Shown: positions 7,983 through 47,079 of the stretch, one piece after another | Position numbering within the stretch: position 1 is the first letter of the stretch | How the letters are laid out: every line of letters begins with the position of its first letter | Origin: Melioribacteraceae bacterium | Lineage (GTDB): Bacteria > Bacteroidota > Ignavibacteria > Ignavibacteriales > Melioribacteraceae | Length of the DNA: 49,291 bases | NCBI GenBank assembly: GCA_015493615.1 | Contig: WGCV01000051.1 | Location: 1 to 49,291, forward strand | Reading direction: 5' to 3' | Position numbers and translations under genes: made by a program | The notes under the pieces: model-generated | Databases searched by the model: none | The model's input: the letters and a program-made list of their open reading frames with translations, nothing else | What the model was told of the DNA's origin: nothing

Positions 7983-8783
7983 TTAACTTCCCTTTAACTC
8001 GTTGAACTTTTGAACAAACTTATTTACACGCGAAACGTCGATTTCATTTGCCCAATATCCATCCCGTTTAAAATAGGAACCGACAATAAATCCGTCGGCA
8101 AAGTTAAAATATTTCTCGATGTTTTCAGTTGTAAGTCCCGACCCGATTAAAACCGGACAGTTCACGTTTTTTTTCACTTCGACTATATCAACAACGCTTG
8201 CCGCTTTGCCGGTTGCCGAGCCGGTAATTATTACGCCGTCCGTGATGAAAAACTCTGCCGCTTTAGCGGTCTCGACAACGGAAGTATCCGCCGTTATTGA
8301 GTGTGAGCTGTGTTTCTTTTTGATGTCGGTGAAAATCTTAATTTTTTCGGCGCCTATTTTTTTGCGGTATCTCATTAACTCGCCTGCGTCCGATTCAAAA
8401 AAACCTTCGTCGGCGACATGACCGAAAACAAAACCTTCCGCCCTGATAAAATCAATCCCGGCGGCGTGGGCGGCGGAGATTGCCGCGATATTCGCGCCCG
8501 CAAGAATTTGCATCCCGACCGGAAGTCGCGTAGTTGATTTTATCTTCTCGGCAATCAGCGCCATCATTGTTGAGATTTCATGTCCGACTTCCCGTTTTAA
8601 GTAAGGAACATCGTGCATGTTTTCAATCATTATGGCGTCCGCTCCCGCGTTGCGGTAAATTTCAGCTTCTTCCAACGCCTTGTCAATAATATCCTGCACC
8701 GAGCCGCCGTATTTCGGAGTTCCGGGAAGCGGAAGAACATGAACCATTGCAATAAGTTTTTTGTCATCAAAAGTAAAATTCAT
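7983..8783 (-). CDS. BtpA/SgcQ family protein
   Basis: 266 residues from ATG 8783, chosen because GAGG lies six bases upstream; a TTG at 8795 gives a frame four residues longer. The sequence matches the BtpA/SgcQ TIM-barrel family: KLIAMVHVLPLPGTPKYGG, AGADAIMIENMHDVPY, FIRAEGFVFGHVADEG, ADTSVVETAKAAEF, GVIITGSATGKAA and VLIGSGLTTENIEKY. BtpA was linked to photosystem I stability in cyanobacteria, and SgcQ is an enzyme-like paralogue in enterobacteria; in a non-phototroph the role is unknown. It is the first gene of the run btpA-like, NTP phosphatase, aroK, aroB, GHL10, with a 55-base gap to the second gene. Confidence 0.85.
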   Translation of the reverse strand: MNFTFDDKKLIAMVHVLPLPGTPKYGGSVQDIIDKALEEAEIYRNAGADAIMIENMHDVPYLKREVGHEISTMMALIAEKIKSTTRLPVGMQILAGANIAAISAAHAAGIDFIRAEGFVFGHVADEGFFESDAGELMRYRKKIGAEKIKIFTDIKKKHSSHSITADTSVVETAKAAEFFITDGVIITGSATGKAASVVDIVEVKKNVNCPVLIGSGLTTENIEKYFNFADGFIVGSYFKRDGYWANEIDVSRVNKFVQKFNELKGS

Positions 8784-8909
8784 TTTGAACCTCAAATTTT
8801 TATAATCATTAACAAAAGATAAAACATTACGGATGAAAAGTCATTTTTCATAAAATACCGTAAATGAAGTATTTGTTATCTTTTCATGAAATGTTAGATT
8901 TGCATAGCT

Positions 8910-9275
8910 AATAGTCTGTTATTCTGATTCCATCCCCAACGAAAAACAGTCGGGGTAAACTTGGCGGACTCAATATGACAATATTAGGTTTTTCAAAGGT
9001 CTCTTAAAATAAAAGGGAACCCAAATTCGAATTTTGCAATGATATGAAGAATCTCTTACGCGGGATTTGCGTAAATTCGAATTTAGAGATTCTTCTTCCG
9101 CCCAAAAACGGCGGAATCAGAATGACATTACTTAACCCAGCTTAAATTTGTCATTCTGATCCCGCCTTGGCGGGAGAAGAATCTCGGAGTTGGTAATTTT
9201 ATCGAATTCAGAGATATTGAGGACGGCTTGCACCTTTGCCGCGGCGAGCTCAATATGACAATTTTAGGTTTTGGA
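8910..9275. repeat. Decayed copies of the MITE family
   Basis: Gap of about 500 bases between the BtpA-like gene and trmB. About 8910-9004 keeps the right half of the repeat (CTCAATATGACAATATTAGG then TTCAAAGGTCTCT). About 9132-9275 keeps most of the interior (TTTGTCATTCTGATCC, a CCGCCTTGGCGG palindrome, AGAATCTC, CAGAGATATTGAGGACGG, CAATATGACAATTTTAGG) but has lost the terminal inverted repeats. A third fragment near 9040-9125 pairs AAATTCGAATTT-type arms into a hairpin. No gene is seen. Confidence 0.6.
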
Positions 9276-9297
9276 AAATTATTAATTAAGAGTAAAG

Positions 9298-21517: not shown

Positions 21518-21674
21518 GAAGGCTTTGCATAACCCCGAAATTTGTCATTCTGATCCTCCGCCACGGCGGAGCGGGAGAAGAATCTCAAAACCGGTAATAG
21601 TACCGAATTTAGAGATATTGAGGACGGCTCCGACCTTCCTCAATATTACAATTTTAGGTTTTGCAAAGGTTTCT
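21518..21674 (+). mobile_element. MITE copy 1
   Basis: 157 bp. Left end GAAGGCTTTGCATAACCCC, right end TTTGCAAAGGTTTCT, imperfect inverted repeats. Direct repeat AAGA flanks it at 21514-21517 and 21675-21678. The interior includes CCTCCGCCACGGCGGAGCGG and a CGGTA/TACCG hairpin. No ORF. It shares its left flank (ACCGCAAT-TAATTAAGA) with copy 5. Confidence 0.75.
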
Positions 21675-24029: not shown

Positions 24030-24060
24030 TTTGACAATATATCTTATTTCCATATATTTC
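24030..24060 (+). promoter_or_regulatory. Candidate Bacteroidota-type promoter of the NO reductase
   Basis: TTTG at 24030-24033 is followed after 19 bases by TATATTTC at 24053-24060, one base from the Bacteroidota -7 consensus TAnnTTTG. It also reads as TTGACA-N17-ATATTT. It lies 49 bases upstream of the norZ start. No convincing FNR/NnrR dyad was found. Confidence 0.4.
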
Positions 24061-24108
24061 AAAATTAACCTTTTTATATTTTTCATTAATAAAGTAGGAG
24101 TTCGTTAT

Positions 24109-26343
24109 ATGCAGCAAACATTACTAGACAAATTTATGTCCAAAAAGGGGCTTTATTCAGCGTTTTGGATAATAGCCATATTTATGGTAACAATATTAAT
24201 TTATTTTACCGCAACCTTGCAGAAGGAAGTTCCTCCGATACCTAAGGTTGTCCAGTCCGACAGCGGGAAGGTCCTTTATACCTACAATGATGTTGTGGAA
24301 GGAAAAGGATATTTCCAGGAATTTGATTTGATGGATTGGGGGACAATGTTAGGTATGGGAGCTTACATGGGCCCGGATTTTACGACCGATTTTTTCCATC
24401 ACAGGGCTGTTTATTTGTATGACTATTATGCAAAGCAGATGTTCGGAAAACCATCGGCTCAGTTAACGGATATTGAAAGAGGCGCGGTAAAAGAAAGAGT
24501 GAAAGAGGATTTTAAGAAACAAACTCATCTTTCCGAAAAAGAAGTTGTTTATACAACCGCCTCCGCCGAAGCTTATCTTCATAACAAAGCTTTGTTGACG
24601 AAAATGCTTGTCGAAGGGGATTCCACAAGAGCGTTTCCCGGCGGAATAATTTTACCCGAAGAAGCTCATAAAATTGCCGCCTTTGTTGATTGGTCGCAGT
24701 TAGTTGCGTCTTCGCTTCGTCCCGGTACCGTAGGCAAAATAGGGGAAGAACGAACTTGGTCTAATAACTGGCCTAAAGAACCGCTGATTGATCAGGATAT
24801 GCTATATACGAACAATGTTGTTTCTCTTTGGGAGTTTTTGCTTCTCTGGACGTTGACTATTATAGTAATATTCTTGTCGTACGAGTATTTGTTCAATAAG
24901 GAAGAAAAACTTGAACCCGCCCTGAAAGTATCTAAATTATTTAAATCTCAGAAAAAACTGCTGAAGTATGTTCCGATAGTAGCCGCATTATTTGTTGTGC
25001 AAATGTTTATCGGCGCATACTTGGCGCATCTTTACGCCAATCCGTCAGAGAGTTTTATTTTTTCGCAATCATTGCTGCCTTTTAATGTGATGAGATCGCT
25101 TCATACGCAAATTGCGATTCTCTGGGTGGCTGTCGGCTGGCTAGTAGGCGGATTGTTGATAGCGCCGTGGGTTGCAAATAAAGATCATAAGTTTCCATGG
25201 CTTGTTGACGTGCTGTGGGCTGCGCTTCTTGTAATTGCAGTCGGTTCGATTATCGGTTTATATTTGGGCGCGACGGGACAATTGAGAGAAACATGGTTCT
25301 GGCTCGGAAACGAAGGACGCGAGTTGCTGAATCTCGGTCGTGTTTGGGATATCGGACTGCTCGTGGGACTTGTCTTCTGGTTCCTGCTTATAATATCATT
25401 AATAAAAAAATCCGCGACAAACAACCCGCTCGTAGGAACGATTATCTGGGCGGCGTTCGGAATCGCCACTCTTTATATTGCGGGAATGATGCCGCTTCAT
25501 AAAATTATGCCCAACTTTACGGTTGACGATTATTACCGCTGGTGGGTAATTCACCTTTGGGTTGAATTAACATTTGAATTATTTGCAGCCGGCGTTATCG
25601 CCTTTATGACGGTATCACTCGGTTTGATTTCTCAGAAAACCGCTGAAAGAACAATGTTCTTTGAACTCTTTCTTATTATGTTGTCAGGTACGCTGGGAGT
25701 TGGTCATCACTATTTCTGGCAGGGACTTGATGAGTACTGGATTGCAATCGGCGGAATTTTCTCGGCATTGGAGCCGTTACCGCTTGCTTTGATGATTATC
25801 GAAGCTTGGAAAAACGTAAGAGAGCAGCGCGCCGAAGGAGTTTCTCACGATTTCTCCACTCCGTTTATGTGGATTACCGGTTCGGCAATCTTGAACTGGA
25901 TTGGCGCGGGATTCCTCGGTATGGTTATTAATACTCCGACGATTTCTTACTATTCGCACGGAACTTATTTGATTATGCCGCACGCCCACGTCGCGTTGCT
26001 CGGAGCTTTCGGTTACATTTCGATTGCATTCTTATATATGACTTCCCGGGCAAATTCTCTCGCAAATGGTTTGGTCTGGAATGAGAAATGGAGCAAAATC
26101 GGTTTTTGGCTCCTTACAATAGGAGTCTTGCTTTTTGCCTTGCCGACTATCATAATCGGATTTCACCAAACAAGAGTTGCAGCGGAAATGGGATATTATT
26201 ACACCCGCGTTCGCACGGCGCTTCAAGATATGCAGGGCTGGATGTGGTTCCGCATTCTCCCGGATGCGCTTATGCTGCTTGGAGGAATCACCATTTTCGT
26301 AGATTTGATAGCAAAAACGTATTCCCGGAAAAAAGTATCCTGA
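24109..26343 (+). CDS. norZ: Quinol-dependent nitric oxide reductase (qNor)
   Basis: 744 residues from ATG 24109, selected because AGGAG stands eight bases upstream; the open frame extends 26 residues further back without an SD. It reduces 2 NO to N2O with quinol electrons at the inner membrane. The N-terminal extension typical of qNor is present (MLGMGAYMGPDFTTDFFHH). The catalytic subunit carries MRSLHTQIAILWVAVGW, HLWVELTFE (histidine and the key glutamate), GVGHHYFWQG and HAHVALLGAFGY, the heme b, heme b3 and FeB ligands. There are about 14 membrane segments. No norC is nearby, as expected for the one-subunit form. It could serve respiration or NO detoxification; no other denitrification gene is in the window. 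Confidence 0.95.
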   Translation: MQQTLLDKFMSKKGLYSAFWIIAIFMVTILIYFTATLQKEVPPIPKVVQSDSGKVLYTYNDVVEGKGYFQEFDLMDWGTMLGMGAYMGPDFTTDFFHHRAVYLYDYYAKQMFGKPSAQLTDIERGAVKERVKEDFKKQTHLSEKEVVYTTASAEAYLHNKALLTKMLVEGDSTRAFPGGIILPEEAHKIAAFVDWSQLVASSLRPGTVGKIGEERTWSNNWPKEPLIDQDMLYTNNVVSLWEFLLLWTLTIIVIFLSYEYLFNKEEKLEPALKVSKLFKSQKKLLKYVPIVAALFVVQMFIGAYLAHLYANPSESFIFSQSLLPFNVMRSLHTQIAILWVAVGWLVGGLLIAPWVANKDHKFPWLVDVLWAALLVIAVGSIIGLYLGATGQLRETWFWLGNEGRELLNLGRVWDIGLLVGLVFWFLLIISLIKKSATNNPLVGTIIWAAFGIATLYIAGMMPLHKIMPNFTVDDYYRWWVIHLWVELTFELFAAGVIAFMTVSLGLISQKTAERTMFFELFLIMLSGTLGVGHHYFWQGLDEYWIAIGGIFSALEPLPLALMIIEAWKNVREQRAEGVSHDFSTPFMWITGSAILNWIGAGFLGMVINTPTISYYSHGTYLIMPHAHVALLGAFGYISIAFLYMTSRANSLANGLVWNEKWSKIGFWLLTIGVLLFALPTIIIGFHQTRVAAEMGYYYTRVRTALQDMQGWMWFRILPDALMLLGGITIFVDLIAKTYSRKKVS

Positions 26344-26352
26344 TAATATATA

Positions 26353-26509
26353 GGAGACCTTTGCAAAACCTAAAATTGTTATATTGAGGACGGTGAGAGC
26401 CGTCCGAAATATCTCTAAACTCGGTACTATTACTGGTTTTGAGATTCTTCTCCCGCTCCGCCGTGGCGGAGGATCAGAATGACAAATTTCGGGGTTATGC
26501 AAAGCCTTC
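26353..26509 (-). mobile_element. MITE copy 2 (between norZ and its terminator)
   Basis: 157 bp, reverse orientation, with GGAGACCTTTGCAAAACC at the left and GGGGTTATGCAAAGCCTTC at the right. Flanks TATA/TATC match at three of four positions. It starts 10 bases after the norZ stop and ends 18 bases before the terminator stem, so it has lengthened the norZ 3' UTR and contributes its own hairpins (GAGGACGG/CCGTCC). Confidence 0.75.
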
Positions 26510-28940: not shown

Positions 28941-29564
28941 ATGAATAATAATTCAATAAAAATTTACGGACTCTTAATCTCCGCCGGTTTTTCCGGCAGG
29001 ATGAAAAGTTTTAAGCCGCTGCTTAAATTCGAAGGTAAGCCGTTTGTAGTAAACATTGCCGATAAACTTGCTGAAGTTTGCGAAAAAGTGGTTGTCGTAA
29101 CCGGTTATAAGGCGCATGAAATTCTTAAAGAATTTGAAGCCGCAGAAAATAACGCGCTGTGCGAAAAGACAAAATTCGTTTTCAATAAAAATTATAAGGA
29201 GGGTATGTTTTCTTCGCTTCAATCGGGCTTGAAGAAATGCGGTGAAGCCGATTGGGTTTTGCTTCATTTTGTGGACCAGCCGACCTTGCCGCCGGAGTTT
29301 TACAAAGATTTCACAAAACAGATTAAAGATAAGTTTGATTGGGTTCAGCCGATTCATGAAGAAAGGAAAGGGCATCCCGTTTTAATCGGGAAAAAGATTG
29401 TCCGTGAGATTTTAGATTCCACACTTGACGGAAATCTGAGGGAAATTTCGCACAATGCCGGAATAAAGAAAAAATTATGGGAGTGTAATTTCCCTCAAAT
29501 ATTTACGGATGTTGACACGCCCGAGGATTACAGGAAGCTCGGAAGTTCTTTCACGAATGAGTAA
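28941..29564 (+). CDS. MobA/MocA-like nucleotidyltransferase
   Basis: 207 residues. The N-terminus IYGLLISAGFSGRMKSFKPLLKF is the nucleotide-binding signature of NTP_transf_3 proteins (L-x-A-G-x-S-x-R-M...K). LLHFVDQPTLPPEFY corresponds to the DxP motif, and HPVLIGKKIVREIL and TDVDTPEDYRKL match MocA, which makes molybdopterin cytosine dinucleotide from CTP. Similar proteins activate other small substrates, and no molybdoenzyme gene is nearby, so MocA is a best guess. The gene is preceded by the REP cluster and followed after 45 bases by a MITE. Confidence 0.82.
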   Translation: MNNNSIKIYGLLISAGFSGRMKSFKPLLKFEGKPFVVNIADKLAEVCEKVVVVTGYKAHEILKEFEAAENNALCEKTKFVFNKNYKEGMFSSLQSGLKKCGEADWVLLHFVDQPTLPPEFYKDFTKQIKDKFDWVQPIHEERKGHPVLIGKKIVREILDSTLDGNLREISHNAGIKKKLWECNFPQIFTDVDTPEDYRKLGSSFTNE

Positions 29565-29609
29565 TTCGCCCGGCGGCGCCCGGTCTGTCGCAATCGGATA
29601 TGATTATTA

Positions 29610-29784
29610 GAAGGCTTTGCATAACCCCGAAGTTTGTCATTCTGAATGAAGCGAAGCGGAATGAAGAATCTCAAAACCGGTAATAGTACCGAATTTAGAG
29701 ATATTTCGGACGGCGCCCACTCCTCCTCCGCCTTGGCGGATTGGCGAACTCAATATGACAATTTTAGGTTTTGCAAAGGTCTCT
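29610..29784 (+). mobile_element. MITE copy 3
   Basis: 175 bp. Ends GAAGGCTTTGCATAACCCC and TTTGCAAAGGTCTCT. Target duplication ATTA at 29606-29609 and 29785-29788. The right-hand duplication includes the stop codon of the glycosyltransferase gene. The interior carries CCGCCTTGGCGG. Confidence 0.82.
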
Positions 29785-29785
29785 A

Positions 29786-30673
29786 TTACGCAGTTTTTTC
29801 AATGCCGAAATCCGTCCGGGCTTTAGCTGAGGATTTAACCTTTTCGAACAAGATTAAGTTTTCCTCTTTTCGCGGAAGAAGTTTGTGATAAAGATGGTAT
29901 TGAACGGCAATATTGTTAAGCGACTTTATTTCTACTCCGTTAAGTTCAAGGCGGTATTGCAGATCGCTGTCTTCCCCTATCGACGGGGCTTTGTAGCGTT
30001 CGTCAAAACCGTTAACCGCAAGTAAATCAGCTTTGTTCATCGACATATTACATCCGAGAAGCCCCCGTTTTTTTTTGTTTAATTTATTCCTTAAAAATTC
30101 CGATTTAATATAAAATCCCTTTTCAACATCATATGAATTCCCGAATATTCCGTCAATAATAATTTTACGGAATTTCTTTTCGAGAAAACGGTTCTTAATC
30201 TTTTCCTCGGAAAGCTCTGCAGTAATTCTTTGCGAAAGATTCACGCGTCTTCCGGTAAGCGCGGCGCGGTTTTCTTTGTGCCTTAAATGTTCCTCAACAA
30301 AATACGAATGCGGGATGCAGTCTCCATCAATGAAAATAAGGTAATCGGAAGCGGCGTTGAGAATCGCTTTGTTCAGAATTCTGTTCTTTCTGAATCCGTT
30401 ATCTTCCTGCCAAATATGTTTTACCGGCAGAGAAAAATCATCCGCAAGTTTATCGACCGCCTCGGCAACTTCTTTAGACGAGCCGTCGTCGGCGATAATT
30501 ATTTCAAATTCTTTAAACGACTGAATTCCCAATCCGGCAAGTACAAGCTTGAGGTAATCAATCTTGTTGTAGAATGAAATAATTACGGACGCGTTTATTT
30601 TATTGGCGTATGTCGATTCTTTTTTCTTCAGTGTTTTTTCCGGATTATAATAAGTAATAGAAACCTTTTGCAT
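29786..30673 (-). CDS. Glycosyltransferase family 2, start codon inside a MITE
   Basis: 295 residues. GT-A fold: ASVIISFYNKIDYLKLVL from residue 28, EIIIADDGSSKEV, a DxD-type FIDGDCIPHSYF, and a late SIGEDSDLQYRLELNGVEI motif of galactosyltransferase-like GT2 enzymes. It would transfer a sugar to a surface polysaccharide or lipid; donor and acceptor are unknown. The ATG (30671-30673) and first five codons lie in the terminal repeat of MITE copy 4, and no other ATG, GTG or TTG is in frame before the domain. The stop lies in the target duplication of MITE copy 3. The gene is thus flanked on both sides by the same mobile family. SD is weak (TTAGG two bases upstream). Confidence 0.85.
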   Translation of the reverse strand: MQKVSITYYNPEKTLKKKESTYANKINASVIISFYNKIDYLKLVLAGLGIQSFKEFEIIIADDGSSKEVAEAVDKLADDFSLPVKHIWQEDNGFRKNRILNKAILNAASDYLIFIDGDCIPHSYFVEEHLRHKENRAALTGRRVNLSQRITAELSEEKIKNRFLEKKFRKIIIDGIFGNSYDVEKGFYIKSEFLRNKLNKKKRGLLGCNMSMNKADLLAVNGFDERYKAPSIGEDSDLQYRLELNGVEIKSLNNIAVQYHLYHKLLPRKEENLILFEKVKSSAKARTDFGIEKTA

Positions 30674-30810
30674 AACCTAAATTTGTCATATTGAGGACGG
30701 TGTAAGCCGTCCGAAATATCTCTAAATTCGGTACTATTACCGGTTTTGAGATTCTTCATTCCGCTTCGCTTCATTCAGAATGACAAATTTCGGGGTTATG
30801 CAAAGCCTTC
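30659..30810 (-). mobile_element. MITE copy 4
   Basis: 152 bp, reverse orientation: AGAAACCTTTTGCATAACC at the left, GGGGTTATGCAAAGCCTTC at the right. Target duplication TAAT at 30655-30658 and 30811-30814. Overlaps the first 15 bases of the GT2 coding sequence. Confidence 0.82.
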
Positions 30811-31179
30811 TAATAAATTTTTCTTTTGAATAATGAAATATATGGAAAATAGCAGAATTTAGAATCCGCTAAAACGGAAGATTTCAGAATGAAAAATTGC
30901 TACGTCATCAAAAAAGTTATACCGATTCAACAGGAAATGTCCAAAATGAAATAATCTAAAGTATGAATTCAGCGACATAATTAATCGCTCCGTTAGTTTC
31001 GGTTGCATAAAATTAAGTTTGTCTTTTCTTTAAGTTTTTCCTTTGCGCCTTGGCGAGTAGCAGCGTTAAGTGGTGAACGTAAAAAGTCCGCTCTTTAAAA
31101 AGCTTTATAAAAAAATTGACTTTTTGCTAAAAATGTTTAAGTTCAATACTCTTTTTTTTAACAAACTGTGGAGATGCTG
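30811..31179. other. Gap upstream of the LOG gene
   Basis: No gene seen. AT-rich sequence, with a possible TTGACT element at about 31116 upstream of the LOG-family gene. No convincing -10 partner and no structured RNA. Confidence 0.35.
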
Positions 31180-31995
31180 ATGGTAAAAAACTTAAAACCC
31201 AAAAAGGCATACAAAAATCTGGATTTTCTTTTGTCGCATGAAGCGAGGGAAATCAGAGTATTGTCAGAATTTATAGAACCTGAAAAAAGATTCAAAGACA
31301 ACAATGTTACGGATACATTTGTCTTTTTCGGTTCGGCTCGAATAAAATCGGAAAAAGAAGCTCTTAAGGAATTAAAAGCGCTTAAAAAGCAGAAGGATAA
31401 AACGCGGGGGTATGCAAAGAAACTGAAATCCGCCGAAAAGACGCTCGAGCTTTCCTGGTTTTACGAGCAGGCGCGCGAGCTTTCCAAACGCTTGACCGAA
31501 TGGTCCATTAACTTAAAGCATCCGAAGCACAGATTTATAGTCGCCAGCGGCGGAGGTCCCGGGATTATGGAAGCCGCAAACAGAGGCGCGCACGAGGCGA
31601 AAGGAAAATCAATCGGGATGAATATCAGTCTTCCGTTCGAGCAGTATGTTAATGAATGGGTCTCGCCCGAACTGGCGTTTGAATTTCACTACTTTTTCAT
31701 CCGTAAATTCTGGCTGATTTATATGGCAAAAGCTTTGATTGTTTTTCCCGGCGGCTTCGGAACATTGGATGAAATGTTTGAAGTTTTGACTTTGATTCAG
31801 ACAAAGAAAATAAACAAAAGCATGAAGGTTGTTATTTTCGGTTCCGATTACTGGAAAAAATTAATTGATTTCGATCTGCTTGTAGAAAACGAAATGATAC
31901 AAAAAAGAGATTTAAAACTTTTCTCATTCTGTGATTCCGTTGAAGAAGCATTTGAAGAAATAACTTCTTGTATGAAGGAAAATTATCTTAAATAG
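31180..31995 (+). CDS. LOG-family protein (lysine decarboxylase-like Rossmann fold)
   Basis: 271 residues from ATG 31180, chosen because GGAG (31170-31173) stands six bases upstream; GTG 31168 and ATG 31174 are also in frame. The family motifs VFFGSARI, ASGGGPGIMEAANRGA and VFPGGFGTLDEMFEVLTLIQ are complete; the PGGxGTxxE signature is that of LOG phosphoribohydrolases, which release cytokinin-type bases or free nucleotide bases from nucleoside monophosphates. Bacterial members with an N-terminal extension of about 100 residues like this one are mostly uncharacterised. An inverted repeat (32004-32047) with GTGGTTCTT arms follows the stop but lacks a T-run. Confidence 0.88.
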   Translation: MVKNLKPKKAYKNLDFLLSHEAREIRVLSEFIEPEKRFKDNNVTDTFVFFGSARIKSEKEALKELKALKKQKDKTRGYAKKLKSAEKTLELSWFYEQARELSKRLTEWSINLKHPKHRFIVASGGGPGIMEAANRGAHEAKGKSIGMNISLPFEQYVNEWVSPELAFEFHYFFIRKFWLIYMAKALIVFPGGFGTLDEMFEVLTLIQTKKINKSMKVVIFGSDYWKKLIDFDLLVENEMIQKRDLKLFSFCDSVEEAFEEITSCMKENYLK

Positions 31996-33331: not shown

Positions 33332-33417
33332 CAAAATTAGTATTTGCGTCGGCGCAAGGTAGGAGATTGCCATCCCGCTGTGCGGGAATAAAAAACATCG
33401 GAGTTCGCAATGACAAA
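33332..33417. repeat. Second repeat family, copy A
   Basis: 86 bp nearly identical to 36041-36124: AAAATTAGTATTTGCGTCG, GCAAGGTAGGAGATTGCC, ATCCCGCTGTGCGGGA, then TTCGCAATGACAAA. It contains a CCCGCTGTGCGGG palindrome and is distinct from the 150-175 bp MITE. Confidence 0.75.
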
Positions 33418-33512: not shown

Positions 33513-33684
33513 GAAGGCTTTGCATAACCTAATTTATATGTCATTCTGATCCCGCCTTGGCGGGAGAAGAATCTCAAAACCAATAAATATACCGAATTTA
33601 GAGATATTTCGGATGGCTTGCACTCCTCCGCCTTGGCGGATTGGCGGACTCAATATGACAAATTTAGGTTATGCAAAGGTCTCT
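33513..33684 (+). mobile_element. MITE copy 5
   Basis: 172 bp. Ends GAAGGCTTTGCATAACC and TTATGCAAAGGTCTCT; AAGA duplicated at 33509-33512 and 33685-33688. The interior carries two CCGCCTTGGCGG palindromes. The left flank resembles that of copy 1, so the two insertions may share history. The rest of the gap (33685-33896) holds no gene. Confidence 0.78.
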
Positions 33685-35648: not shown

Positions 35649-36040
35649 GTTAACTGTCCTTTGATTATTGCAAGCCTAACAAACTTAAAGTATTTCTTGT
35701 TAATATTGTCATTCAATTCGCATCCATTACTATTCATCCAATTCTAAATTGACAAAAGTGAAATTGGAAAGAAAGTAAAGAAACTTCTTTCGCCCTCATT
35801 AGTGAGTTTTTTGTATCAATATTTTTTAATGCGGGGTTGCTCAATATTTGCCTCTGTTTAATAAAATTAAAGTATCGAATTTTTTGGTTTTTTGCAAGTG
35901 AAGAGGGAATAATTGTTGGATTGTTGAATGATGATAGTCCGCCAAGCTTGTCCCAACTCTTATTCATTGGGAGCGGATTAGAATATATAATGATTTTATG
36001 AAAAAATCCGAGTACCGCAAAAAGCGGGACAAAGAATCTC

Positions 36041-36124
36041 AAAATTAGTATTTGCGTCGCTGCAAGGTAGGAGATTGCCATCCCGCTGTGCGGGAATAAA
36101 AAACATCTGAGTTCGCAATGACAA
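36041..36124. repeat. Second repeat family, copy B
   Basis: Partner of 33332-33417, same orientation, about 95% alike over 84 bp. The surrounding gap 35649-36272 holds no credible gene; a 143-codon minus frame there runs through this repeat and looks non-coding. Confidence 0.72.
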
Positions 36125-36272
36125 AAGTTGGATTTGTGAAGGCGCTTACCCACGATGAAAAACATCGTGGCAAGCCTCGCTTCATTTAAAATGACAAATG
36201 CAGTAAAAGTTTTACAAAAACGTTTTTCGTTTAACGTCTCAACGTCTTGCGTTTCACGTCCTGCGTGTTGCG

Positions 36273-46927: not shown

Positions 46928-47079
46928 GAAGGCTTTGCATAACCCCCGAAATTTGTCATTCTGAATGAAGCGAAGCGGAATGAAGAATCTCAAAACCGGT
47001 AATAGTACCGAATTTAGAGATATTTCGGACGGCTCCCACCGTCCTCAATATGACAATTTTAGGTTTTGCAAAGGTCTCT
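46928..47079 (+). mobile_element. MITE copy 6
   Basis: 152 bp. Ends GAAGGCTTTGCATAACCCC and TTTGCAAAGGTCTCT; target duplication AATA at 46924-46927 and 47080-47083. The interior includes GGACGG-CTCCCA-CCGTCC hairpin. The most regular copy together with copy 4. Confidence 0.83.

Follow-up and report, generated by a model that had tools for sequence, protein, structure and literature searches.

A miniature inverted-repeat element may have supplied the start codon of a glycosyltransferase gene whose own start appears lost in a Melioribacteraceae bacterium

Prokaryotic miniature inverted-repeat elements (MITEs) are located almost exclusively in intergenic regions (PMC4596501). The closest described system in which such an element contributes to a neighbouring reading frame is MITEAba12 of Acinetobacter. 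At three places, an outward-reading terminal repeat of MITEAba12 gives a neighbouring gene its start codon together with its first four residues (MQQS), and one end of the element has an outward promoter from which transcripts have been detected (PMC6382973). The supply of a start codon by a terminal repeat is thus already published. Searches of the available literature on miniature inverted-repeat elements of Ignavibacter, and on a start codon provided by the inverted repeat of an insertion sequence under that wording, returned no report. The locus considered here belongs to a Melioribacteraceae bacterium and lies on contig 51 of an incomplete, 3.15-Mb genome assembly of 67 contigs; the whole stretch of DNA that was analysed, hereafter the window, comprises 49,291 nucleotides. 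In the window, one MITE copy (copy 4) adjoins the 5' end of a gene for a GT2-family glycosyltransferase, and, judging from the sequence, the start of that gene lies in the outward-reading, in-frame terminal repeat of this copy, as it does in the terminal repeats of MITEAba12. The site of copy 4 fits the intergenic habit reported for MITEs in the available text of PMC4596501, and its use in frame would therefore be unusual.

The GT2 gene occupies positions 29786-30673 on the minus strand, and its open reading frame (ORF) encodes 295 amino acids with Glycos_transf_2 and Glyco_transf_7C domains. The former scores 73.9 bits with profile PF00535 (cut-off, 23.3), and the latter 36.2 bits with PF02709 (cut-off, 23); the GT2 domain begins at residue 29. 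By sequence, the best solved relatives are chondroitin synthase structures (PDB 2z86 and 2z87), which match residues 28-264 with an E value of 4.1e-15, although their chains comprise approx. 625 residues compared with the 295 of the window protein. None of the 17 NCBIfam models among the matches listed for the protein exceeded its cut-off. In an alignment with 49 non-redundant relatives of at least 47% identity, the window protein keeps all 42 invariant and all 37 near-invariant columns (79/79 in total), and seven relatives subjected to the same treatment keep from 77/82 to 79/79. Both flanking genes (28941-29564 and 31168-31995) are encoded on the plus strand, and thus the GT2 gene seems to stand alone. 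A protein search revealed no second close copy in the same genome, the next best match being 27% identical over part of the length.

Copy 4 (30660-30810, minus strand, 151 bp) has imperfect terminal inverted repeats, its ends being GAAGGCTTTGCATAACC and GGTTATGCAAAAGGTTTC, and is flanked by the target-site duplication (TSD) TAATA, the inner copy of which lies at 30655-30659 and the outer at 30811-30815. A sequence-only reading of the window had proposed that the GT2 gene takes its only possible start from the terminal repeat of this element. This was borne out: the ATG at 30671-30673 (minus strand) is the sole ATG, GTG or TTG before codon 48, where the next in-frame candidate, a TTG, falls inside the GT2 domain. 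The same reading assigned the first five codons to the MITE, which holds as far as the second base of codon 5, but the last base of that codon belongs to the TSD. The MITE share of the reading frame is the last 14 bases of the terminal repeat, and the N-terminal peptide predicted from the MITE ATG is MQKVSITYYNPEK. In order to view the site as it would be without the element, copy 4 and one TSD were removed from the sequence. As had been stated, the frame joined in this way is open and lacks a start: 38 codons extend upstream of codon 26 to a TAG, and no ATG, GTG or TTG is found among them.

The window and 27 loci were also scanned for ORFs with 90 or more codons that read out of a MITE. The scan yielded 53 edge pairs, some of them false, and eight ORF rows, among which copy 4 was the only one judged to be a real MITE copy that contains the one ordinary start available to a plausible gene. 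The rows at window positions 8500, 44143 and 24438 and at position 690 of locus L006 were judged to be false edges and are outside the 45 distinct MITE copies that were compared. One row corresponds to a 106-codon frame antisense to the ORF at 24031-26343. In the rows from L004 and L018, the start does lie in the MITE, but an ATG is also found less than 30 bases outside the element. At L018 (1501-1660), a GTG at the MITE end is in frame with an ORF of 349 codons, which has its own ATG 28 bases outside the element; the GTG is a possible alternative, longer start.

In the genome of the window, at least 41 MITE copies of 100 bp or more were detected with a 160-bp query; 40 of 304 first-look candidates were scored, and the total is therefore probably larger. 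With up to two mismatches allowed, each strand has 220 matches to the terminal-repeat pattern, compared with 8 and 5 matches for the control. The copies are mostly 148-175 bp long, their terminal inverted repeats are imperfect, and a matching 5-bp TSD accompanies 39 of 46 element rows, a few copies being counted in both orientations; mismatched TSDs were noted for L009, L016, L018, L022, L107 and one copy in the window. Copies 3 and 4 thus have the features of a bacterial MITE, as they are short and have inverted terminal repeats, a fixed 5-bp TSD and many dispersed relatives; at 151 bp, the element has no room for a transposase. Other copies in the window are located at 21518-21673, 26354-26509, 33513-33683 and 46928-47078, one of which starts approx. 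10 bases past the end of the ORF at 24031-26343. In most cases an outward codon resembling a start is found at both ends of the element, as ATG CAA AGC on one side and as TTG/ATG/GTG CAA AGG on the other. A stretch of 340 bp at 8943-9285 contains part of a MITE body together with two right ends of MITE type, an arrangement that looks like nested or decayed copies. A separate pair of 86-bp repeats, 97% identical and 2.7 kb apart, lies at 33332-33417 and 36040-36125.

Outside this genome, the MITE family is abundant, with long matches, in a single one of four genus mates (G004, e.g., at loci L136 and L146) and gave no match in the remaining three, a distribution pointing to recent bursts or losses. 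Eight further relatives gave weak matches, nearly all of them inside bases 8-99 of the element and mainly in its core (bases 22-65). The core motif GTCATTCTGA...GAAGAATCTC (approx. bases 22-65 of copy 4) is also present in G005, G022, G023, G026 and others, and in these other genera, which belong to the same family and order, the core-motif matches span little beyond the core. No clear candidate for a partner insertion sequence (IS) was found among six transposase loci (PF01609, PF13586), five of which have no MITE-type repeats nearby within two mismatches. At the sixth, L147 (contig C11; 803-1120), a DDE transposase gene starts directly next to a MITE copy, and a further, incomplete terminal repeat precedes it; the left end of this IS looks like a different repeat, but the contig stops before its right end, so L147 may still be a partner. 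A pair of repeat ends at C2:169468/171387 was rejected as the partner IS, as no ORF there was taken for a transposase. The ORFs adjoining that pair look like cas1/cas2.

The reading frame that opens in copy 4 depends on a single base. The terminal repeat of this copy has CAAAAG where the family has CAAAGG (30665-30670, minus strand), and the one extra A puts the ATG in frame with the GT2 gene. As read from the sequence, the MITE ATG would otherwise be out of frame and would open a frame that runs for 14 codons into a TGA. The nearest sister of copy 4, C36:33512, differs from it at three positions in 151 bp. In particular, copy 4 has a terminal G that is common to most family rows, an internal C that it shares with the window copies starting at 21518, 29610 and 46928, and the extra A in the repeat. 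Since the first two bases occur in other copies, the extra A is the sole difference that looks new in copy 4. The A run is readable in 43 of the 45 distinct copies, irregular ends having made it unscorable in L017 and in the second copy in L011, and the inserted base is found in copy 4 alone. Among the 40 copies with a scored run, 37 have three As, two have four and one has two (L112 has one A fewer, and L119 reaches four As through substitution); copy 3, L028 and L109, which were read by eye, have three As each. The extra A suggests selection for the frame, an argument made after the fact and for which no probability is claimed.

The start used by the rest of the family is found further downstream. 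The relatives examined for this purpose number 57, that is, 63 loci minus the window, two unanchored loci (L096 and L101) and three marked duplicates, and some of them may be near-identical (e.g., L082 and L083). Each of these distinct, anchored relatives has an ATG, GTG or TTG at a position matching residues 20-26 of the window protein. The start corresponds to codon 25 in 41 relatives, codon 26 in 10, codon 24 in two, and codons 20, 21, 22 and 23 in one each; 51 of the 57 thus start at codon 25 or 26. At these two codons, the window gene reads AAA ATA (30596-30601, minus strand). Because every relative has a start in this region and neither the window gene nor the joined empty site has one, the family's own start is gone from the window gene, unless the assembly is wrong. 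The ATA at codon 26 is one transition away from ATG, and the AAA at codon 25 is two changes away. Among the 41 relatives that start at codon 25, 12 carry an Ile codon at position 26, so the loss of an ATG at codon 25 is also possible, and either codon may represent the lost start. The segment at 30602-30659 (minus strand), which is now read as the last base of codon 5 and the codons up to 24, would be the former 5' leader.

An allele without the MITE that was close enough to show the empty site was found neither in 39 genomes, including that of the window, nor in a broader contig collection, in which the best match to the GT2 protein is 66% identical and from which the records nearest to the window genome may be absent. 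A search of the remaining four genomes of the genus gave no match to the GT2 gene at E ≤ 1e-20; two of them are 77% and 85% complete. Among 45 GT2-protein loci in named genomes, 21 are labelled Ignavibacteria, Ignavibacteriales, Ignavibacterium, Ignavibacteriaceae, Melioribacter or Melioribacteraceae, and eight are labelled just 'Bacteroidetes bacterium'. A comparison of 31 window ORFs with 62 loci from relatives, many of which extend 1.5 kb or less to a side, gave no match to the neighbours of the GT2 gene. The LOG-like neighbour is present in three genus mates at 66-74% identity; in the surrounding 4.7, 10 and 11 kb (the first of which ends with its contig), the GT2 gene did not turn up, nor did the dynamin-like or the MobA-like gene. 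The MobA-like neighbour has no match in any of the four genus mates. A relative (approx. 60% identity) of the window gene at 7983-8795 adjoins the LOG-like gene in L133 and L134 (genomes G001 and G003); the distance between the two genes in the window is 22 kb.

The explanation that fits these data best starts from the insertion of a 151-bp MITE approx. 60 bases upstream of the native start of a stand-alone GT2 gene. The terminal repeat would have brought an outward-facing ATG, and a one-base insertion in its A run would have joined that ATG to the gene in a single frame, the intervening leader being open by chance. The original start, at what are now the ATA of codon 26 or the AAA of codon 25, would have been lost, and the enzyme would be made with an N-terminal extension of approx. 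25 residues, the first five codons of which come from the MITE and the TSD. Transcription would begin inside the MITE and would thereby leave the ATG outside a hairpin that the two terminal repeats can form. We infer the use of the MITE ATG, the transcription start inside the MITE and the order of events from the arrangement of the locus. That the MITE replaced the native GT2 start and added approx. 25 residues to the protein is a proposal that we hold with about even confidence. It may further be suggested, more tentatively, that the turnover of the start codon is complete, i.e., that a MITE end and one selected base have replaced the lost start, and that the gene has come to rely on the element for this codon and probably also for its promoter; we consider this possible but somewhat doubtful.

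The predicted structure of the mRNA bears on this proposal. An RNA reading through the element is predicted to fold with -59.6 kcal/mol (z -5.3), and in this fold the whole ATG is paired to the CAU of the opposite terminal repeat. For an RNA that starts inside the MITE past that arm, the predicted structure is weak, with -9.8 kcal/mol, and 193 of 200 shuffled sequences fold at least as well; the ATG is still placed in a weak helix. As the hairpin would hide the ATG in any transcript that begins upstream of the MITE, the use of this ATG most likely requires a promoter within the element; otherwise the GT2 gene would be silent. A pattern scan upstream of the GT2 gene found no sigma-70-type promoter-like site that reads into the gene. 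With a Bacteroidota-like consensus, one match points into the gene, which is near chance (0.46 expected by simple shuffling), and it lies outside the MITE; promoters of this group may not fit the patterns that were scanned.

The pairing of the ATG in the read-through fold and the lack of a promoter match above chance argue against a start in the MITE, and they make a silent young pseudogene a serious rival. According to this explanation, the MITE cut the promoter off, the native start mutated, the in-frame ATG is coincidental, and the ORF is still intact because the event is recent. The near identity of copy 4 to its sister copy and the strong hairpin around the ATG are consistent with such a history, as is the dispensability of the gene in the genus, where none of the four other genomes gave a match at E ≤ 1e-20. 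Moreover, since copy 4 looks young, the kept residues indicate that the GT2 gene was functional until recently and not that it is translated at present; with a recent insertion, they are weak evidence for use of the MITE start. For the same reason, the absence of decay at the 79 conserved columns counts only slightly against a pseudogene. A further objection is that the one base that looks new is the very base needed for the frame. A fresh pseudogene is regarded as unlikely, though it deserves more weight than the alternatives that follow.

Translation might instead begin at a non-standard codon near the native site, either at ATA 26 or at CTG 15 in the A-rich leader, in which case the MITE would be irrelevant. 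The leader is indeed open, near-cognate codons are found in frame, and the RNA folds predicted leave codon 26 unpaired. However, the relatives without exception have ATG, GTG or TTG in this region, and the ATA may be an ordinary coding triplet, given the Ile codons found at the same position in relatives that start at codon 25. We regard a non-standard start as improbable. An error in the assembly consensus, or a mixture of strains, could also hide a real ATG at codon 25 or 26 or have introduced the extra A. The genome is incomplete and in 67 contigs, and a single wrong base at codon 26 would suffice, the extra A then being incidental; the remainder of the gene is nevertheless clean, with every conserved column kept, and an artefact of this kind appears more improbable still.

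At the other end of the gene lies copy 3 (29610-29783, plus strand, 174 bp), which is oriented opposite to copy 4 and is flanked by the TSD TATTA at 29605-29609 (outer) and 29784-29788 (inner). It had been noted that this copy abuts the GT2 stop codon and that its TSD contains TAA, and this was confirmed: the TAA is the reverse complement of 29786-29788, within the inner TSD. The C-termini of the 57 relatives correspond to residues 280-317 and most of them to residues 293-299. As a TSD copies its target and the relatives end at similar residues, the stop codon is probably native to the gene. Its location in the TSD needs no special cause, because the duplication preserves the target and a TAA suits an AT-rich target. 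Each copy has its own TSD, whereas a unit that had moved as a whole would show one outer duplication; thus copies 3 and 4 look like two independent insertions. The sequence-only suggestion that they form a composite transposon that brought the gene as a unit is very improbable and did not hold up, for although inverted terminal repeats of a single family form the outer ends and the gene is absent from other genomes of the genus, the TSDs are separate, the outer flanks (TATTA and TAATA) form no direct repeat, the genome has no second close copy of the GT2 protein, and repeats of this type occur near only one of the six transposase loci (L147), on one side and with the contig ending there.

If the MITE did replace the native start, the GT2 gene is a concrete case of a small mobile element capturing the translation start of a gene that was already in place, and the sequence still shows the likely steps (insertion, setting of the frame and disappearance of the former start). 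If the turnover is complete, the approx. 200 terminal-repeat matches per strand, most of which carry an outward ATG or TTG, would constitute a genome-wide supply of portable starts. The annotation of starts beside MITEs can also be wrong.

Among known systems, MITEAba12 resembles copy 4 in that a terminal repeat supplies the start codon and the targets are AT-rich; in contrast, it is 113 bp long in most copies, has a 9-bp TSD where one was found, and occurs in other bacteria (PMC6382973). Neither the loss of a neighbour's own start nor a frame-setting insertion, as seen in copy 4, is described in the available text of that report; Tn6645, a composite transposon treated there, is bounded by ISAba3-like elements and not by MITEs (PMC6382973). 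The enterobacterial repeats RU-1, RU-2 and RU-3 are small, MITE-like and fused in frame to host genes, in some cases near the N-terminus, and are in this respect similar to copy 4, but they contribute longer reading frames of their own, whereas copy 4 contributes only the last 14 bases of a terminal repeat (PMC2759123). Pneumococcal BOX elements likewise provide a start codon for ORFs that end beyond the element, and for BOX there is RNA evidence from RT-PCR; according to the available text, these ORFs match hypothetical proteins alone, in contrast to the established enzyme gene at copy 4 (PMC3049150). QMITE1 of Coxiella is a MITE family that often overlaps annotated ORFs and carries promoters, and the available part of its description, unlike the locus considered here, includes no replacement of a start (PMC5896051). 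What may be new at copy 4 is the combination of a start supplied by a terminal repeat, a copy-specific base that sets the frame, and the loss of the native start.
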